The translations under genes were made by a program, and so were the position numbers. Positions 3,547 through 42,090 of a DNA stretch of 64,000 nt are shown here, piece after piece. Origin of the DNA: Myxococcaceae bacterium JPH2 (GTDB taxonomy: Bacteria > Myxococcota > Myxococcia > Myxococcales > Myxococcaceae); assembly GCA_016458225.1 (NCBI GenBank), contig JAEMGR010000009.1, forward strand, positions 310,001 to 374,000, in the 5' to 3' direction. Numbering within the stretch: position 1 is the first letter of the stretch; each line of letters starts with the position of its first letter. The notes under the pieces were generated by a model that saw nothing but the letters and a program-made list of their open reading frames with translations, had not been told where the DNA came from and ran no database searches.

Positions 3547-4515
3547 CTACAAGAGCTTCGCGGCTTCCAGCGCGTGGTAGGTGATGATGAGGTCCGCGCC
3601 CGCGCGGCGGATGGAGGTGAGGATCTCCATCATGAGGCGCTCGCCGTCCACCCAGCCGTTCTGCGCGGCGGCCTTCACCATCGAGTACTCGCCGGACACG
3701 TTGTAGGCGACCACCGGCAGGTCGAAGCGCTCGCGCACGGCGCGGATGACGTCCATGTAGGACAGGGCCGGCTTGACCATGATGAGGTCGGCGCCCTCCT
3801 CCACGTCCAGCGCGGTCTCCTTGAGGGCCTCGCGCACGTTGCCCGGGTCCATCTGGTAGCCCCGGCGGTCACCGAACTGGGGCGCGCTCTGGGCGGCCTC
3901 GCGGAACGGACCGTAGAAGCCCGAGGCGTACTTGGCGGAGTAGGCCATGATGGGCACCTCCGTCAGCTTGACTTCGTCCAGGGCCTTGCGAATGGCGCCG
4001 ATGCGCCCGTCCATCATGTCCGAGGGCGCGATGATGTCCGCGCCGGCCTGGGCGCACGTGACGGACATCTGCGCCAGCAGCGGAAGCGTGGCGTCGTTGG
4101 CCACGTGCCCGCCCTCCAGCACCCCGCAGTGGCCATGGTCCGTGTACTCACAGAGGCACACGTCCGCGATGACCTGCAGCTCGGGGACGGCCGCTTTGAT
4201 TTCCCGGATGGCGCGCTGGACGATGCCGTCGCGCGCGTAGGCCTGGGAGCCCTGGGCGTCCTTGTGGTCCGGGATGCCGAAGAGCAGCACGGAGGGAATC
4301 CCGAGCGCGTGCGCCCGCTTCGCCTCCGCGACGACGTGCTCCACGGAGAGGTTGAACACCCCTGGCATGGAGGCGATGGGGCGCCGCACGTCCCGACCTT
4401 CCACGACGAAGAGCGGGTAGATGAAGTCCGAGGGAGCGAGACGCGTCTCGCGAACCATGTCTCGGAGCGCGGCGGAGCGGCGGAGCCGACGGGGACGGTG
4501 GACGGGATAGGCCAT
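3547..4515 (-). CDS. hemB: Porphobilinogen synthase (delta-aminolevulinic acid dehydratase)
   Basis: HemB condenses two 5-aminolevulinate molecules to porphobilinogen, the first common step of tetrapyrrole synthesis, in the cytoplasm. The 322-residue length is standard. The catalytic lysine region [16 protein letters not shown] and the second Schiff-base lysine in [10 protein letters not shown] are present. The active-site loop [14 protein letters not shown] has the three cysteines of zinc-dependent enzymes rather than the Asp-rich magnesium type. ATG at 4515 is preceded at 4523-4536 by an inverted repeat that overlaps a TATACC -10-like element, implying a very short or absent leader. It appears to be first in the minus-strand run that continues into the DUF4177, RDD and ATP-grasp genes. 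Confidence 0.97.
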
Positions 4516-13664: not shown

Positions 13665-14948
13665 CTACCACCAGACGCTGGTGTAGCGCCGCTCCTTGCT
13701 GGAGGAATGCCCACCGCGCCCAAGCGACGAGTGGTCCACGCTCTCCTCCCACAACAGGCTCACCGTGGTGATGGCCCCCGCGGAACCGAGGAACGACAGG
13801 ACATACGGCGTGGACTGATCGAACCCACCCAGCACCAGTCCGGAGATGAGCAGCACCGCGGCGCCCACGCCCGCTCCGAACATGTCGGCGCGCAATATCT
13901 GCGATGGCGTCGGGTCATAACGCATGGTCGCCAACGCCAGCGCGCCAGCACCGATGCCCGGGGCAATCAGCAAGGTGTCCTTCCACGTCTTGCCGGACAC
14001 CCGCGTGCCAGAGAAGTTGATGATGGCCAACAGCAGCGCGCTGTACGCCAGGCCCCAGCCCGCACCGGACGCCACGAGCAGGCCGTCATCCAGCGGCATC
14101 TGCCCGCCGCCGAGTCCCGCGGTGAGCCACGCCCCCAGCTCTGCGCCGATGAACGACGACCACGTCAGGACTCCCGCGTCCTGCGTCACCAGGTCCATGA
14201 AGCCCGCGGCGAACATGGCGCCCACGAACGAATTGGCGATGCCGAAGTCCGCCATCGGCTTGTCCACCCAGTGGTTGAACTGCCACCAGGCTGACGCACC
14301 AAAGCCCAGGCCGGCGCCGATCAACGTGCCCGCCAACATCGCCTCGCGCGAGCTGCGATCGAAGTTGAAGTCCTTCGCGAACGCCTGCGTGAAGAACCCG
14401 CCCAGCGCCCCCATGGTCGTGTGGTGCAGGACAAACGTCATGCTGCCCGGGCCGGAGAGGAACGGGCCCTGACGCGGACGGCCATCCAGCATCATCCCCG
14501 AGTCCTCGGGCGGAGACACATCGGCCGCGCTCAGCGTCGACGGCGCGCGAGTGTCCGGCTGCGTCAGCGACCCTGACGGCGCGCGAGTGTCCGGCTGCGT
14601 CAGCGACCCTGACTGCGGGCGCCCCGAGTCCGGCTCGGCCGCGCGGGTGGGCGCATCGGGCGTCGTCGGCGCGGGCTCCGAGGGCTGCGCGAAGCCGGAA
14701 CGAGGCTCCGTGGCCGAGTCTGGCGCGGGCGCACCCACCTCGGGCTGCGGCGCGGCGGCATCACCCGGCAGAGGCTGGGTGCGCGGGTCCGACTCGGGCG
14801 ACTGCGCGGTCGACTGCGGGGCCGCGTACACCGGCGGTGACGCGGGCGACACGGGTGGGTACGGCGACTGTCCACGGGCGAGCCCCGGCAGGGTCAGCGC
14901 CACCATGAGGACGGCGGTGGGGAGGCTCCAGGTTCTCAGAAGTGACAC
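13665..14948 (-). CDS. Repeat-containing multi-pass membrane protein, unknown
   Basis: Family not recognised. The 427-residue product has a signal peptide (cleavage likely after GLARG near residue 25) and a Pro/Ser/Thr/Asp-rich linker to about residue 155. A C-terminal membrane domain of roughly eight glycine-rich hydrophobic segments runs to about residue 400. The linker contains two perfect tandem copies of a 12-residue unit (GSLTQPDTRAPS). The membrane part resembles DUF-type glycine-zipper proteins such as ALIAPGIGAGALALATM. GTG at 14948 has GGAGTCC eight bases upstream. It is divergent from the photolyase gene. An envelope location is likely; function unknown. Confidence 0.65.
   Translation of the reverse strand: MSLLRTWSLPTAVLMVALTLPGLARGQSPYPPVSPASPPVYAAPQSTAQSPESDPRTQPLPGDAAAPQPEVGAPAPDSATEPRSGFAQPSEPAPTTPDAPTRAAEPDSGRPQSGSLTQPDTRAPSGSLTQPDTRAPSTLSAADVSPPEDSGMMLDGRPRQGPFLSGPGSMTFVLHHTTMGALGGFFTQAFAKDFNFDRSSREAMLAGTLIGAGLGFGASAWWQFNHWVDKPMADFGIANSFVGAMFAAGFMDLVTQDAGVLTWSSFIGAELGAWLTAGLGGGQMPLDDGLLVASGAGWGLAYSALLLAIINFSGTRVSGKTWKDTLLIAPGIGAGALALATMRYDPTPSQILRADMFGAGVGAAVLLISGLVLGGFDQSTPYVLSFLGSAGAITTVSLLWEESVDHSSLGRGGHSSSKERRYTSVWW
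14542..14613. repeat. Two perfect tandem copies of a 36-bp unit
   Basis: The unit at 14542-14577 is repeated exactly at 14578-14613, with flanking partial similarity. It lies inside the linker-coding part of the membrane protein gene and encodes two identical 12-residue repeats in frame. Confidence 0.95.
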
Positions 14949-35587: not shown

Positions 35588-36211
35588 TCAGCCCGCCGTC
35601 GGCGAGGTGGGCGCCGGGGGGCTCGCCGCGGGCCGAAGCTGGAAGGACTCGAGCGACAGCGAGGTCTGCGGGACGCGCTGGCCGTCGTGCTCGGCCGCCA
35701 CCTCCACGCGCACCATGCCCACGCCCGGCGCGAAGGTCATGGTGTTGATCAGCGTGGTGCGGGTATCCACGCGGTTGCGGCCTTCCACCTGGACGCAGTT
35801 CTGGAAGGTGCCGGCAGGGGCCTCGCAGGAGGCTCCCGCCTGGAGGATCTGATAGCGCTCCGTGGAGGACACCGACACCACGTTCGTCCACGAGCGCCCC
35901 GTCTCGAGCGGGCCGCGCAGGAGGTAGCGCTTGGGGTCGCGCAGGCCGAAGCCGTCCACCGCGAGCTGACCGCCCTGGCTGTCGAGGAAGAAGCCGGCCT
36001 CTTCCTTGACGATCTCCACCGTGACGGCCTTGTCGTCGCGCCCGTTGACCCGGTACGTCCAGCGGTTGCCCACCGCGAGGGGGTAGTACTCCGACAGCGA
36101 GGCGACCGAGGACGCGGAGGCCTCGGCCTCCACGTGCTTCGCGCAGCCAGAGCCCGCGAGCGCCAGGGACACCAGGGCCGCGCTTCCCACCGAGAACAGC
36201 GAGTGCTTCAT
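35588..36211 (-). CDS. Lipoprotein, unknown
   Basis: A 207-residue lipoprotein. The signal peptide ends in LALAGSGC near residue 23. The mature part begins EYYPLAVGNRWTYRVNG, a phrase common in secreted beta-sandwich proteins, and continues as strands with a late pair CEAPAGTFQNCVQVEG. A Pro-rich tail follows (ASPPAPTSPTAG). Function not recognised. It starts one base after the stop of the HEAT lipoprotein gene, so the two are coupled. birA follows 90 bases downstream on the same strand. Confidence 0.75.
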   Translation of the reverse strand: MKHSLFSVGSAALVSLALAGSGCAKHVEAEASASSVASLSEYYPLAVGNRWTYRVNGRDDKAVTVEIVKEEAGFFLDSQGGQLAVDGFGLRDPKRYLLRGPLETGRSWTNVVSVSSTERYQILQAGASCEAPAGTFQNCVQVEGRNRVDTRTTLINTMTFAPGVGMVRVEVAAEHDGQRVPQTSLSLESFQLRPAASPPAPTSPTAG

Positions 36212-36212
36212 G

Positions 36213-37130
36213 TCAGGGCTCCGCGTGGTCCGAGCCACGCGCCTCCGCGTTGGCGTGCTTGCGTGATGCGTAGAGCGTGTCGAGGGCCTGCTGCGCGGCG
36301 GCCTGCACCGACGGCGTGTCGTGGCCCTGAGCGACCGTGTAGAGGTAGGCCTCGGCCTCGGGACCGCCAATCTCCCCCACCGCGAAGACGATCTCCTGCA
36401 CGAAGCCTGTGTCTCGGCCACGCGCCAGGTCGATGAGCGCGGGCACCGCGCCTCGGGCCTTCATCTCGGCGAGCGAGCCGATGGTGCGACGCACCACATC
36501 CGCGTCGCTCGTGTCCGTCAGGCGCTCGATGAGGAGCGGTGCGGCGGCGGGATGCTTGCGCTCCGCCAGGGTGCGCAACGCGAACTCGCGGATGCGGGAG
36601 TCACTGGCGCGCAGGTCCGCCACGAGCTGATCGTCCCCGCGCTCCAGCGCCGCGAGCTGGAGCACCGCGGACTCCGTCAGCTGCCGGAGCGCGGACTCCA
36701 AGGCGGACCGCATGGCGGCGCGGCGGCCCTCCACCGTGTCCGGGTCGACGACCGCCTCGCCCAGCCCCACCACTTCGTAGCGCTGGGGCAGGTCCCCACC
36801 GAAGCGCTCCAGCGAGAGGCTCGCGCCCACCTCGGCGTAGCTGTGCGGGTTGCCGTCCTTCAGGACCTCGCGGGTGAACGGGACCTCCAGCGTCAGCCGC
36901 CAAGGCCTGGCCTTGCGAGGGACCTCCTCGCCGAGCTGCTCGAACCGTCCGGAGGCGGTGAGCGCTTCGCTGAAGAGGATACGAACCCCCTCTGGCCCCA
37001 TGCCGAGCAGCGCGTTGTCACGCACCGTGGCCCCCGACAGCTCCACCGGCGCCACGGGATGGCGCGGCGCCTGCGAGCGGCAGGCGCTGAGGAGCACGAG
37101 GCAGGTGGCGAGCAGCAGGGCCGGCTTCAT
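36213..37130 (-). CDS. HEAT-repeat lipoprotein
   Basis: A 305-residue lipoprotein with lipobox LLSAC (cleavage after about residue 16). The first half (to 150) has beta-strand character (WRLTLEVPFTREV, RYEVVGLGEAVVD). The second half has at least three HEAT-like helical repeats: LRASDSRIREFALRTLAERK, DADVVRRTIGSLAEMKARG and FVQEIVFAVGEIGGPEAEA. Such repeats resemble the phycobilisome-lyase type used for protein binding. Envelope location expected. Its upstream gap contains imperfect repeats, see 37131-37693. Confidence 0.75.
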   Translation of the reverse strand: MKPALLLATCLVLLSACRSQAPRHPVAPVELSGATVRDNALLGMGPEGVRILFSEALTASGRFEQLGEEVPRKARPWRLTLEVPFTREVLKDGNPHSYAEVGASLSLERFGGDLPQRYEVVGLGEAVVDPDTVEGRRAAMRSALESALRQLTESAVLQLAALERGDDQLVADLRASDSRIREFALRTLAERKHPAAAPLLIERLTDTSDADVVRRTIGSLAEMKARGAVPALIDLARGRDTGFVQEIVFAVGEIGGPEAEAYLYTVAQGHDTPSVQAAAQQALDTLYASRKHANAEARGSDHAEP

Positions 37131-37460
37131 GAGCCCCCCTACGCTAACACTCCCGCGTGGGCCGCACCCGATTCGCGTGAGGACGAAGTTCAGCCCTCTC
37201 CACCTTCCGACAGGCCCATGCTCGGAGGAGGAGGAAGCAAGGGGCCACCGCCCCTCGCAACACGCACGGAGCCTTCACAGGAGGCGCCTGCTTCGCGTCG
37301 CGATGGAGTGCAGCCAGCGCCACCGTTGACCAGGTCTGTACCGAGCCGGAGCGACTGAGACCCTCCCGACGCCAACGCGCCGCGAGCAAGGCCTACGCGC
37401 CACGAGGACACGACGTTCAGTGGTCACTGCGCTCGTGAGCGGAGTTGGATCCGCGTGCGC

Positions 37461-37680
37461 GAGGTTGAGCCCTCACTGGCCTCCGCGGATTCTGTGCACT
37501 GCGCAAGAAGCGGGGAGGCTTCGACCTCTCCCGACATGCGCTCGTGGACTGAACAGGATCCTCGGGGGCGTGAGGTTCAGCGCTCACTGCCCTCCATGGA
37601 TCCCGTGCGCTGCGACAGAAGCGGGGAGGCTTCGACCTCCCCGACTCCCGACACGCGCTCGTGGACTCGACCGCGACCAC
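37461..37680. repeat. Two imperfect copies of a 111-bp unit
   Basis: Copy one begins GAGGTTGAGCCCTCACTGGC at 37461 and copy two GAGGTTCAGCGCTCACTGCC at 37572. Both carry the shared block AAGCGGGGAGGCTTCGACCT (37507 and 37618) and end in GCGCTCGTGGACT. They differ by point changes and a 6-bp insertion. In copy two the block forms a hairpin, GGGGAGG-CTTCGA-CCTCCCC (37623-37642). Confidence 0.85.
37623..37642 (-). terminator. Hairpin downstream of the HARE-HTH gene
   Basis: Seven-base stem with a six-base loop inside repeat copy two, 52 bases after the stop of the minus-strand HARE-HTH gene. It may act as its terminator; no T tract follows. Confidence 0.4.
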
Positions 37681-37693
37681 GAGCGCGCGAGAC

Positions 37694-39799
37694 TCAGCCC
37701 TCTCCGCCTTCCGTCGGGCCCGCGCTCGGCGAAGGCGCCGCAGCCTCCGCGGACTCCTTGCGCTCTGGCTCGGATTCCTCGGCGACCGGCGCGCTCGCGG
37801 CCTCCGCTGCCGCCGTCACGGCCGCGGCGAGAGGGCTTCCCTCGCTCGGCGTCGCGACCGCCGGCATCTCGCCAGCGGACTCGCTCGGGGCCGAGGCGAT
37901 GGACTCGCTCGTCGGCGCAGAAGTGGCTTCCGTCGATGCCGTGGTCTCTCCGGATCCAGGCGCAGCCTCTGCGGGTGCGGTGGCCTCACTTGTCGGCGCG
38001 GCGGCCTCGCCCGGAGCGCCCTCGGCGCCGCGGTTGCCACGCCCCCGGCGCCCACGACGGCGACGACGACGGCGCTTGCGCTCGGACGGAGTGCCCTCGG
38101 CGGCGCCCTCCGGCGAGCCCTCCACGCGGCCTCCCGCGACGAACGCGCTGGCGGCCTCGAGGTCCTCGTCATCGCCCTCCTCGTCGCCCTCTTCGCTGTC
38201 ATCGTCCTCGGAGGACGGCGTGAAGCCGGCTCCCGCGGGCGGCGCGGCGACCTTGGCGGGTGCCTCGCGCGGCGCCTCGGCCGAGGCCTCCCCCCCCTTG
38301 GCCTCGCCCTCACCGCCGCCCTTGGACGCCTCGCGGGCCGCCTCACGCTCTTCACGCGCGCGGCGCTTCTCGCGGCGGCGCTCCGAGCGCTCCGAGCGTT
38401 CGGAACGCTCCGTCGACTCGGCGGGCGTGGCCTCGGCGGTCTCGCCCTCCGCGCCTTCCTCGCGCGCCTGCTTCTCGTGCTTGCGCTCTTCGCGGCGGCG
38501 CTGCGCCTCGTCGGCATCGACCTTGGCGGTCTCGAAGAATCGATCGTCGATGTCGTACAGCTCCACCTGCGTGACGGTGACGGCCGTCTTCGCCTCGAGG
38601 AACTTCTCCCCGAGCGCATCGCCGCACCAGAGCATCACCAGCGCGCCGCTGGCCTGCGCCTCGGAGCGCGCGTCGCCGCGCACGTCCCCCGCGCTGACCA
38701 GCAGGCCGACCTGCGCCGAGTAGTGGCCCAGGTCGCGCCGCAGCTCCTGCACCGTCTTGCGATCGATGGCCGGCGTGCCCTTCAGCATGCGCACCGCGTA
38801 GCGCAGCTCCACGCTGCCCTCGCGCTTGCGAGCCGTGAGCAAGGGGCCTTCCTTCGAGCGCTTGGCGACCTTCAGCTCGCGGAAGCCCAGCCCGTGCATC
38901 ATCTTCACCACGGACTTCTCGAAGGTACCGACCTCGAGGTCGCCCAGGCGCTTGCGCAGCGCCCGAGCCACCGCGCGCCGCGCGTCCTTGAGCGCCGTGC
39001 GCACCGTGGTGATGAGCGCGGCATCCACCGCCGCCTCGCCCGTGGCCGCAGCCGACGGCTTGCTCAGCACCGGACGGCCACCCTCGAGCGGAATCCCGAG
39101 CGCCTGCGCAAACGCGGCCTGGAGCTCCAGGGGCGGCGCCTCGCTGGGCATGCCCGCGCGCTCCAACGTCACCTCGCCCGTCTCCTTGTTCAGCGAGTAC
39201 TGGGGCCGGCGACCCGCATCGATGCGGCGCTGGTTGTCCTCCAGCAGGGCGGTGAGCACCGCCTCCACCGTGGTCTCCTCCGCACACAGCTCCTTGCCGC
39301 GAGCCCGCTCGATGATCTGATCCGTGCGCAGCGCGACCTCGGCCTCGCTGAGGATCTCGAACACCACCTCGGGCAGCGGCGGGAAGCGCTTGCGACGTCC
39401 ACCCCGCTCCTCTTCCTCGTCGCGGCGACGCTTGCGCTCGCTGCCACGCCCCGCCACTCGCACGTTGTCCGTGCGCGGCTCGGGGTGTCGTTCCACCGGA
39501 CGCAGCGGCGGGAGATCTTCCTCCACGTGCGGCTCAAGCACTCCGGTCTGCGCCAGCGCCTCGGCATCCTCTGGGAGCGACCAATCCGTCAGCGCGAAGG
39601 TGTCCTTCGCCGTGACAATGACCTTGCGATCCCGCGTGCGGCGCGCCATGGCAGCGAGGCGCGACAGCATCGTCACCTCGGGCGTCTTGCCGACGTGGGA
39701 CAGCAGGTTCTGCTGGATGGATTTCTCCGTGATTTCGAGGAAATGCAGGGGGCGCCCTTCGCTCTCCAGGACGCGGAGCGCGGCCTCGTAAAATGTCAT
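37694..39799 (-). CDS. HARE-HTH / Mrr-like domain protein with acidic and Arg-rich tail
   Basis: A 701-residue protein. Residues 1-65 match the HARE-HTH fold (TFYEAALRVLESEGRPLHFLE, KTPEVTMLSRLAAMARR), found in RNA polymerase delta, ASXL and restriction enzymes. A basic and acidic linker precedes a second HARE-like unit near 140-210. Residues 300-415 resemble the Mrr restriction fold (MHGLGFRELKVAKRSKEG, VQELRRDLGHYSAQVGLLVS), but the catalytic D...QxK residues are not seen. From 430 the chain is low complexity: Glu/Arg-rich, an RRRRRRRGRRGRGNRG nucleic-acid-binding-like run, then Ala/Ser/Glu repeats. A DNA or RNA binding role is inferred; nuclease activity is doubtful. It is divergent from the beta-propeller gene. 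Confidence 0.75.
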   Translation of the reverse strand: MTFYEAALRVLESEGRPLHFLEITEKSIQQNLLSHVGKTPEVTMLSRLAAMARRTRDRKVIVTAKDTFALTDWSLPEDAEALAQTGVLEPHVEEDLPPLRPVERHPEPRTDNVRVAGRGSERKRRRDEEEERGGRRKRFPPLPEVVFEILSEAEVALRTDQIIERARGKELCAEETTVEAVLTALLEDNQRRIDAGRRPQYSLNKETGEVTLERAGMPSEAPPLELQAAFAQALGIPLEGGRPVLSKPSAAATGEAAVDAALITTVRTALKDARRAVARALRKRLGDLEVGTFEKSVVKMMHGLGFRELKVAKRSKEGPLLTARKREGSVELRYAVRMLKGTPAIDRKTVQELRRDLGHYSAQVGLLVSAGDVRGDARSEAQASGALVMLWCGDALGEKFLEAKTAVTVTQVELYDIDDRFFETAKVDADEAQRRREERKHEKQAREEGAEGETAEATPAESTERSERSERSERRREKRRAREEREAAREASKGGGEGEAKGGEASAEAPREAPAKVAAPPAGAGFTPSSEDDDSEEGDEEGDDEDLEAASAFVAGGRVEGSPEGAAEGTPSERKRRRRRRRGRRGRGNRGAEGAPGEAAAPTSEATAPAEAAPGSGETTASTEATSAPTSESIASAPSESAGEMPAVATPSEGSPLAAAVTAAAEAASAPVAEESEPERKESAEAAAPSPSAGPTEGGEG

Positions 39800-39827
39800 C
39801 GAGTATTCCCCAAGAATTCCGAACGGT

Positions 39828-39869
39828 TACAAAAATGTAGGTCCGTATAGGTGGCGGATGCTAGCCACC
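39828..39869. promoter_or_regulatory. Divergent promoter region with two inverted repeats
   Basis: Between the HARE-HTH and propeller genes lies TACA-AAAA-TGTA (an unusually AT-rich palindrome for this DNA) and, further on, GGTGGC...GCCACC (39850-39855 with 39864-39869). TATAGG at 39846-39851 could be a -10 for the plus-strand gene. Either palindrome could be an operator. Pattern only. Confidence 0.35.
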
Positions 39870-39897
39870 GCTAAACTGGCTTGTCAACGAACGTAAG

Positions 39898-42090
39898 ATG
39901 ACCCGCATACGCATCGGACAGCGCTGGAAGCGCGAACCCTCAGCCCCCCCGTTGGATTCCATCGCCCTGGAACTCGACGGGGTGAACCTGCTTTCCGGAG
40001 CAGTGGAGGAGCCCTTGGCAGAGGTCGTCCCCGCCCTGGCGGAGGCCGTCGCGGCGCTCCACGGTGGGACTCGGAGGCTGGCCCAGGTCTCACTCCCAGA
40101 GGCACACCTGGAGCTGGTGCTGCGCCGGGTGGGAACGGAAATCGAGCTGTCGGTGGCCAGCCTCGCCCGACCGGCCCGGCTGCTGCGGCCCCCGGTTCGC
40201 GTGGAAACGGAGGAGCTGGCGAGCGCGGTGCGGATGGCCAGCCAGCGCTTCCTGGCGGACGTGTCGGTGGTCGCGCCCCGAGCCCTGGCGCCGGCCGTGG
40301 CCCGCAAGCTCGCTGACTCCCTCAAGCAGCTGGGCAAGGCCTCGCCTGCTCCGTCGGAGGGCGCGTCCCGGCCCGAGCCTCGCCGCGTGGAGCCGCCTGG
40401 GGCGCCCGGATTCGGCTTCGAGCTGCGTGAGCCTCCCCTCCCCGCCACCCGTGCCACACGAGGCCCTCACGGCGCGCTGGCGCCCCTCCTGGGCCCTGGC
40501 GAAGTGTGGCTGGCGGTTCCGGGACGCCCCCAGGCCTGGCGCGCCCAGGGACCGCCGTTCCTCACGGTCCTGGAGCTGTCCCGGCAGGCGGCCGAGCTGG
40601 CAAGGGCGGTGGAGCTGGGCGAGCCTCGCCACGCGCTGGAGCTGGGCGGCTCGCGGCCCGCGCTCTCGCTCGACCTCCGGGGCGGAAAGGCCCGGCTTGG
40701 GCCCACGGGCGCGCCCTTCGCGCTGGACGCCCGCGAGCTGGTGGCGGCCATGTTCCATCTGGGCGAGGCGCTCGTGCTCGCGTTCGCCGAGGAGGACCGG
40801 GCGCAGGTGAACAACCCGTACCTCGTGGAGTTGGCCGAGCGGTGTCGCGAAGGCCTGTCCCACTTGAGGGACCCGGCGAAGCCTCCCGAGTCGGAGGGGG
40901 CCGCGCGCGAGCCTCGCAGCGCCCCAGGCCGAGGTGAGTCCAAGCCCCTCAAGGTCCCTGGACGCCTGCGGCGCCTGCGGTTCGAGAAGCTGTGGGAGCA
41001 GCGCGGACTGGAGGACGCGGAGGAGGCCCGCTTGTTGTCGGGTCGCCATGGCCCCGTCTATTGCGCGCCCCGACTGGCCTGCGCGTTCTCCCGCCGGGAT
41101 GGCGCGCTGCTGTGGCGGCGGGCCGCGTCCCTGGGCGTGGCGGCCGCGGCGGACGGGCACGCGGTGGCGGCGGACACGGCGCGCGTCTATGGCTTCACGG
41201 GCCGAGGCGCCGGCGCGCGCTGGCTGCACGACCATGACGGCATCCCGCTCGGCCCCCTCCTGCTGCGCAAGGATCGGCTGCTGCTGACGCTGTCCGAGGA
41301 GCGCACGGTGGTGGCCTTCGCCGAGGCCACCGGGCGCGAGATGTGGCGACTGGCCCCTCCGCGCGCGCAGCGCAGCTGGCTCACGCCGCAGGGGCACCGG
41401 GCGCTGCTCGCCACCGACTCAGGCTATCTCTACGGCCTCGATCTCGCGGACGGTCAGGTGCGCTACCGGCTGCGCGCGCCCCTCCCCTTCCACGGTGCAC
41501 CGGTGCCCTGGGGACGGCGGGCGCTGGCCATGCTCGGACGTGGCTCACACTGGGCGGTGCTGCTCGCGGACGCGCACACGGGCCAGGCGGTGTGGACCCA
41601 CGAGCTGGACCTCACCCATCCCTCGCCGCCGCTGCCGCTCGGGGCTCGCGTGTACCTGGCGGGAGAGCGGGACCGGGAGGGGCTGCTGGTGTGCCTGGAC
41701 GCTCGCGGCAAGAAGCTCTGGGAGCGCGCGCTGCACCTGGGGCCAGGGCCCTTCGCGCTGGCTCCGCTCCAACGCGCCGTCATCGTGACGAGCGCCTCGG
41801 GCGCGGCCGCTCGCGTGACGGCCTCTGGACAGGTGGACTGGCGCGTAGGCGCCACCGGCGAGCCCCTGCTCGCGGCCCTCCCTGCTCGAACGGCGCGGGG
41901 CGTGACCCTGCTTCCGGGGGAGCACGTGCGCGCGGTGGAGCCACGCGGTGGACAGGTGCTCGCGGAGGTCCGCGCGGGCGAGGGGCTCGTCGCGCTCCAG
42001 GCCGACGTGCACCTCAACCTCTACTTCCTCGACGAGGCTGGCACGCTGTCCGCGTACCAGCTCGGGTCGCACTTCACCGTCGTGGAGTGA
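39898..42090 (+). CDS. PQQ-type beta-propeller protein with novel N-terminal domain
   Basis: A 730-residue protein without a signal peptide. Residues 1-340 are not recognised: an Arg/Ala-rich, mostly helical domain with two similar halves (ALELDGVNLLSGAVEEPLAE and LSLDLRGGKARLGPTGAPFA). Residues 360-730 form PQQ-like blades: GPVYCAPRLACAFSRRDGALLWRR, LYGLDLADGQVRYRL, VWTHELDLTHPSPPLPLGARV and GKKLWERALHLG, i.e. the Trp-containing repeats of the BamB/quinoprotein type. No catalytic PQQ ligands are evident, so a scaffold role is more likely. The lack of an export signal is unusual for the family. Divergent from the HARE-HTH gene. Confidence 0.7.
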   Translation: MTRIRIGQRWKREPSAPPLDSIALELDGVNLLSGAVEEPLAEVVPALAEAVAALHGGTRRLAQVSLPEAHLELVLRRVGTEIELSVASLARPARLLRPPVRVETEELASAVRMASQRFLADVSVVAPRALAPAVARKLADSLKQLGKASPAPSEGASRPEPRRVEPPGAPGFGFELREPPLPATRATRGPHGALAPLLGPGEVWLAVPGRPQAWRAQGPPFLTVLELSRQAAELARAVELGEPRHALELGGSRPALSLDLRGGKARLGPTGAPFALDARELVAAMFHLGEALVLAFAEEDRAQVNNPYLVELAERCREGLSHLRDPAKPPESEGAAREPRSAPGRGESKPLKVPGRLRRLRFEKLWEQRGLEDAEEARLLSGRHGPVYCAPRLACAFSRRDGALLWRRAASLGVAAAADGHAVAADTARVYGFTGRGAGARWLHDHDGIPLGPLLLRKDRLLLTLSEERTVVAFAEATGREMWRLAPPRAQRSWLTPQGHRALLATDSGYLYGLDLADGQVRYRLRAPLPFHGAPVPWGRRALAMLGRGSHWAVLLADAHTGQAVWTHELDLTHPSPPLPLGARVYLAGERDREGLLVCLDARGKKLWERALHLGPGPFALAPLQRAVIVTSASGAAARVTASGQVDWRVGATGEPLLAALPARTARGVTLLPGEHVRAVEPRGGQVLAEVRAGEGLVALQADVHLNLYFLDEAGTLSAYQLGSHFTVVE

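Follow-up and report, generated by a model that had tools for sequence, protein, structure and literature searches.

A gene for a protein with HARE-HTH and Mrr_cat domains is followed, in the genome of Myxococcaceae bacterium JPH2, by a HEAT-repeat gene, and the stretch between the two genes carries imperfect repeats that resemble the end of the first gene. How did these repeats arise, and do they serve a purpose? A preliminary description of the sequence offered two answers: repeated duplication of the gene end, or a regulatory or structural RNA element with a hairpin in each copy. We addressed the question in a 64,000-nucleotide stretch of contig JAEMGR010000009.1 (positions 310,001 to 374,000; referred to below as the window, whose coordinates are used throughout), in the genome (8,994,968 bases searched) and at related loci.

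Organization of the Repeat Array

The features of the locus are listed in Table 1. The stop codon of the HARE-HTH/Mrr gene occupies 37694-37696. Judged from its sequence, the N-terminus of the HEAT-repeat protein would be lipoprotein-like.

Table 1. Features of the HARE-HTH/Mrr and HEAT-repeat gene pair and of the stretch between them.
Feature	Position	Strand	Remarks
HARE-HTH + Mrr_cat gene	37694..39799	minus	701 aa; Pfam PF05066 E 6.5e-15, PF04471 E 1.5e-11; ORF
Hairpin 1	37652..37689	minus	13-bp stem just past the stop; stem kept in Citreicoccus inhibens, where the loop is 7 nt shorter
Hairpin 2	37616..37650	minus	core GGGGAGG-loop-CCTCCCC at 37623-37642
Unit 1, 117 bp	37577..37693	minus	post-stop region, two hairpins, then degraded gene-tail copy ending with a relic TGA at 37577-37579
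Unit 2, 111 bp	37466..37576	minus	second copy; relic stop position 37466-37468 reads TCA (minus strand)
Partial unit 3	37428..37465	minus	post-stop part; within the 196-column self-match
Stretch between array and ancestral gene end, ~196 bp	37232..37427	n/a	no clear relation to the units
Gene end and stop at ancestral position	37190..37231	minus	83% to 37694-37735; stop 37190-37192
Old gap, 59 bp, up to HEAT gene start	37131..37189	minus	kept in related genera
HEAT-repeat gene, 3′ neighbor of the HARE-HTH/Mrr gene	36213..37130	minus	305 aa; Pfam PF13646 E 3.5e-19

When the window was compared with itself by blastn, 37428-37615 and 37537-37732 were joined in a single gapped alignment (74% identity, 196 columns, 123 bits, E 7e-28), which ranks first of the 160 direct repeats with a spacing below 1 kb among the blastn matches listed; blastn is apt to omit matches that lie very close to the main diagonal. 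Two repeat spacings can be recognized, one of 111 bp (37452-37531 versus 37563-37642, 83% identical) and one of 117 bp (37528-37615 versus 37645-37732, 73% identical), confirming that there are tandem repeats past the HARE-HTH gene. Second among the 160 (45.5 bits) is the match of the gene end, 37694-37735, to 37190-37231, which is absent from the preliminary description. The array does not appear in the output of Tandem Repeats Finder (TRF), even at a minimum score of 30, because its copies are too diverged. The top TRF score in the window (152) belongs to a separate 36-bp tandem repeat at 14539-14621 (2.3 copies, 95% matches).

The span originally assigned to the repeats, 37131-37700, is repeat in part; its far end is the old gap, and 37232-37427 has no clear relation to the units. 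The best match of the latter stretch elsewhere in the genome has an E of 0.018 (best 40 of 46 candidates scored).

That the gene's own 3′ end is another copy was borne out by direct comparison. The coding end, 37694-37732, agrees with unit 1 (37577-37615) at 28 of 39 bases, a level that none of the other 60,950 positions in the window attains, and with unit 2 (37466-37504) at 24 of 39 bases, attained at five of these positions. We also scored local alignments of four junction segments, designated gene, B, A and ancestral end, against 400 shuffles. No shuffle was as good as the pairs gene/B, B/A and gene/ancestral end, and the pair gene/A was marginal (8/400 shuffles reach its score). A was weakly similar to the ancestral end (score 26, null mean 15.2, 0/400 shuffles), and B, compared with the ancestral end alone, was not above chance (94/400). 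A candidate for a further copy near 37310 was rejected: its scores against gene, B and A were equalled by 333, 232 and 106 of 400 shuffles, those against two C. inhibens segments by 400 and 53, and that against the ancestral end by 15. The value of 1/400 obtained for this candidate against a segment designated S is an artefact, both segments sharing 15 bases.

Searches for Dispersed Copies

At E of at most 0.001, the array was found at this locus only, as judged from the best 40 of 140 genomic candidates scored. The best match of a single unit outside the locus had an E of 0.045 (best 40 of 70 candidates scored). A blastn search of phage and plasmid records yielded no good match to the region, and a phage or plasmid origin is rejected at this sensitivity. 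Elements of the REP, BIME and ERIC type are extragenic palindromes that follow stop codons and fold into long hairpins. The array resembles them in being extragenic, in its post-stop location and in its long hairpins; unlike them, it lies at one locus as far as searched, and a dispersed repeat of this type, which would require many genome copies, is rejected.

Length of the Gap in Related Genomes

Among 22 related named loci, the gap between the HARE-HTH stop and the HEAT start was measured by script in 21 (L019 was left out). It is 47-67 bp long, with no array, in 19 of the 21. Longer gaps are found in the sister C. inhibens M34 (270 bp; contig NZ_JAHNZT010000047.1), in Myxococcus sp. RHSTA-1-4 (230 bp before a HEAT start at 4001 of locus L030) and in the window (563 bp). 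The gene pair also occurs in BNCN01000004.1 (locus L027), whose title names Comamonas sp. KCTC 72670, a label that may be wrong; the gap there is 66 bp, as in the Myxococcus loci.

A second set of loci, overlapping the first, was gathered with the HEAT protein, which is matched with E up to 1e-40 in 38 of 58 genomes. Thirty loci were returned, two being the window and C. inhibens and one (L069) giving no motif. In 26 of the 27 left, the stop and the beginning of the match are 39-76 bases apart, the match start falling inside the HEAT protein in five of those loci; in the remaining one, from genome G072, the distance is 641.

As can be seen, the last 59 bp of the window gap are the old gap. They differ from C. 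inhibens at five positions, match other relatives (e.g., 85% over 63 bp in genome G031) and are probably the promoter or leader of the HEAT gene. The adjoining stop copy at 37190 occupies the ancestral position of the gene end, and the present stop at 37694-37696 belongs to the upstream copy produced by the duplication. Since the gap is short in relatives and a gene-end copy stands beside the old gap, it follows that the gene end was duplicated across the stop codon. The repeated duplication of the gene end that had been proposed is thus supported by the coding end present in the unit copies, by the 37190-37231 copy and by the 19 of 21 loci without an array.

Two Citreicoccus genomes were compared, C. 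inhibens and that of the window, which is taken to come from Citreicoccus or a close relative. The C. inhibens gene tail showed no similarity to its own gap in excess of chance (206/500 shuffles as good, and 256/400 in another test), but the C. inhibens gene end matches the ancestral copy of the window (0/400 shuffles as good). Similarity between array and gene end in relatives, on which the preliminary description had made its duplication model depend, is seen in the second comparison and is at chance level in the first. The ancestral stop and the gene stop of C. inhibens are in different frames. Beside the ancestral stop, the C. inhibens gap carries four copies of a 21-bp unit (L003 1571-1654; the same stretch in L009).

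Local Repeats in the 3′ Part of the HARE-HTH/Mrr Gene

Fifty orthologous loci with their flanks, 294,637 bases altogether (22 + 27 + the window; the sets overlap, and the loci are not all independent), were each compared with themselves by blastn, and matches spaced by 40-1000 bp with at least 44 bits were collected. All 38 local repeats found in these 50 loci lie upstream of the HEAT start codon (122,069 bases); the 172,568 bases that begin with this codon yielded none by blastn. Thirty-four of the 38, in 15 loci, precede the HARE-HTH stop (25 in the tail past the basic motif and nine further up), and their offsets are divisible by three in 33 of the 34 matches. The other four touch the gap in two loci, two being located in the G072 gap and two across the stop of the window. 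Because the blastn self-comparison probably drops repeats spaced under about 50 bp (the C. inhibens 21-bp array is absent from it), these loci were also scanned with TRF. With a score of at least 80, TRF gave 70 rows upstream (27 loci) and one downstream (L018, 30 bp x 2). The length of the tail past the basic motif ranges from 61 to 380 residues across relatives. We conclude that the low-complexity 3′ part of the HARE-HTH/Mrr gene is duplication-prone.

Two of the other long gaps contain repeats or gene-end copies. In RHSTA-1-4, the tail of the HARE gene recurs past its stop, within the gap (0/500 shuffles). An 8-bp-stem hairpin is visible in the sequence just past the HARE stop of this strain. 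The G072 gap (L053 2711-3009) contains a tandem array of 95-bp units (3.1 copies, 81%) that is unrelated to the window array and whose best match elsewhere in the G072 genome has an E of 0.033. Compared with its own gene tail, the G072 array was not above chance (31/500 shuffles), and a derivation from that tail would be a weak claim. It thus follows that not every array at this position is shown to be gene-end-derived.

Folding of the Units

The predicted fold of unit 1 (-66.3 kcal/mol, z -4.0) and that of unit 2 (-54.1, z -4.6; one long imperfect hairpin) were each more stable than all of 200 shuffles. The C. inhibens counterpart folds with a z of -5.3, and the whole 570 nt of the window region with a z of -3.9. 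Both unit 1 stems persist in C. inhibens with different loops. When three sequences were aligned, two-sided changes were seen at 2 of 28 pairs, and 101 of 500 shuffles reached the covariation values. Pairing stands at 89.7% and falls to 60.5% at most when the partner is slid. In the second copy, four pairs of hairpin 1 are disrupted; trimmed to 94 nt, that copy has a less stable fold (z -2.6). The core pattern of hairpin 2, with a loop of 3-9, has one exact match in the genome. No terminator-like site was found in 36900-38000, there being no U-tract after a stem, and no Rfam covariance model matched 36000-39900 up to an E of 5.

Coding Potential of the Array

The stops and stop-like triplets at 37694, 37577, 37466 and 37190 share one phase, 37466 reading TCA. 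The 6-bp difference between units, which had been noted for preserving a reading frame, is present; what the frame holds, however, is stops, and substitutions in it are without codon bias. By codon position in the HARE frame, there are 5/3/7 differences from C. inhibens and 10/7/6 between the units (small numbers); the corresponding counts for the true coding tail are 13/3/31. In the open frame at 37417-37680, G+C content is flat across the three codon positions (0.64, 0.68, 0.68). The evidence is weak, since the last 300 nt of the gene itself have a nearly flat profile as well (0.70, 0.76, 0.77). A protein read from this stretch is rejected on the lack of codon-position bias and, weakly, on the flat G+C. 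The array is best read as non-coding, chance being the simplest explanation of the difference that preserves the frame.

Discussion

The stable folds raise the possibility that the array functions as a structured 3′ UTR or a regulatory RNA, whose hairpins would protect the HARE-HTH mRNA, or terminate it, and keep it uncoupled from the HEAT gene, the copies being kept for that reason. Both units and the C. inhibens counterpart are more stable than shuffles, the unit 1 stems survive in C. inhibens with changed loops and some two-sided changes, and pairing drops when the partner is slid. On the other hand, shuffles of the three sequences equal the covariation often, hairpin 1 is disrupted in the second copy, whose shortened form folds less well, neither a terminator-like U-tract nor an Rfam match was found over the intervals searched, and the gaps of most relatives are too short for the hairpin pair. 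The RNA element with hairpins of the preliminary description is thus a weak possibility. We consider that selection for such an RNA is an improbable explanation of the array, and that a structured 3′ UTR is possible. It is less probable still that lineages as different as Citreicoccus, G072 and RHSTA-1-4 independently build hairpin arrays in the gap after the HARE-HTH/Mrr gene, kept to insulate the HEAT gene from the nuclease-like gene or to autoregulate the latter.

Two further explanations concern the array as a whole. A small element could have inserted at the 3′ end of the gene and left a scar, flanked by the copies of the gene end at 37190 and 37694 as direct repeats; 42-bp direct repeats of 83% identity do flank about 460 bp, and none of the units contains a counterpart of 37232-37427. 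Much of the interior, however, is itself built of gene-end units, no good match was found elsewhere in the genome (among the candidates scored) or in phage and plasmid records, and no mobility gene is seen in the ORF list of the gap, which makes a scar of this kind very unlikely. The units might instead be in-frame protein repeats, either of a formerly longer HARE-HTH coding tail or of a tail reached by TGA read-through. The phase of the three stops and of the TCA at 37466 agrees with this, and many relatives have longer tails; against it are the missing codon-position bias, the different frames of the two C. inhibens stops and, weakly, the flat G+C, and we give this explanation hardly any credence.

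We therefore regard the array as very probably the decaying remains of local tandem duplications that repeatedly affected the 3′ end of the HARE-HTH/Mrr gene. One such event in the Citreicoccus lineage would have run over the stop codon to produce two successive tail-stop-gap segments. The upstream copy would have stayed the working gene end, while downstream copies would have become spacer and decayed by substitution and deletion, and the copy at the old position would have retained its stop together with the 59-bp HEAT leader. Slippage or unequal recombination would be the mechanism, and the array would have no selected function beyond a possible role of its hairpins as a structured 3′ UTR. 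The duplication model leaves about 196 bp (37232-37427) unaccounted for by unit copies.

In its head-to-tail units of about 100 bp and lineage-specific lengths, the array is similar to minisatellite-like intragenic repeats in low-complexity protein tails; in the relatives, unit offsets within the gene are divisible by three (33/34). The difference is that the duplicated segment here spans the stop, so that the copies are extragenic and free of frame constraint. The rtT repeats at tyrT in E. coli form a tandem array downstream of a gene, with a copy of the gene 3′ end in every unit. The array shares with them the tandem 3′-end copies downstream of a gene; unlike here, tyrT is a tRNA gene, and the array has no Rfam match. 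Among the literature matches listed, there was no title on gene-end duplication, and we do not claim its absence from print. The array is a product of ordinary tandem duplication and not a new genetic element or system.

What the locus illustrates is that a duplication-prone tail can overrun its stop, turning coding repeats into spacer and, here, making the gap of a closely spaced gene pair about ten times longer. The locus offers, at most, a natural experiment on whether the next gene is expressed differently once repeats have expanded beyond a stop.
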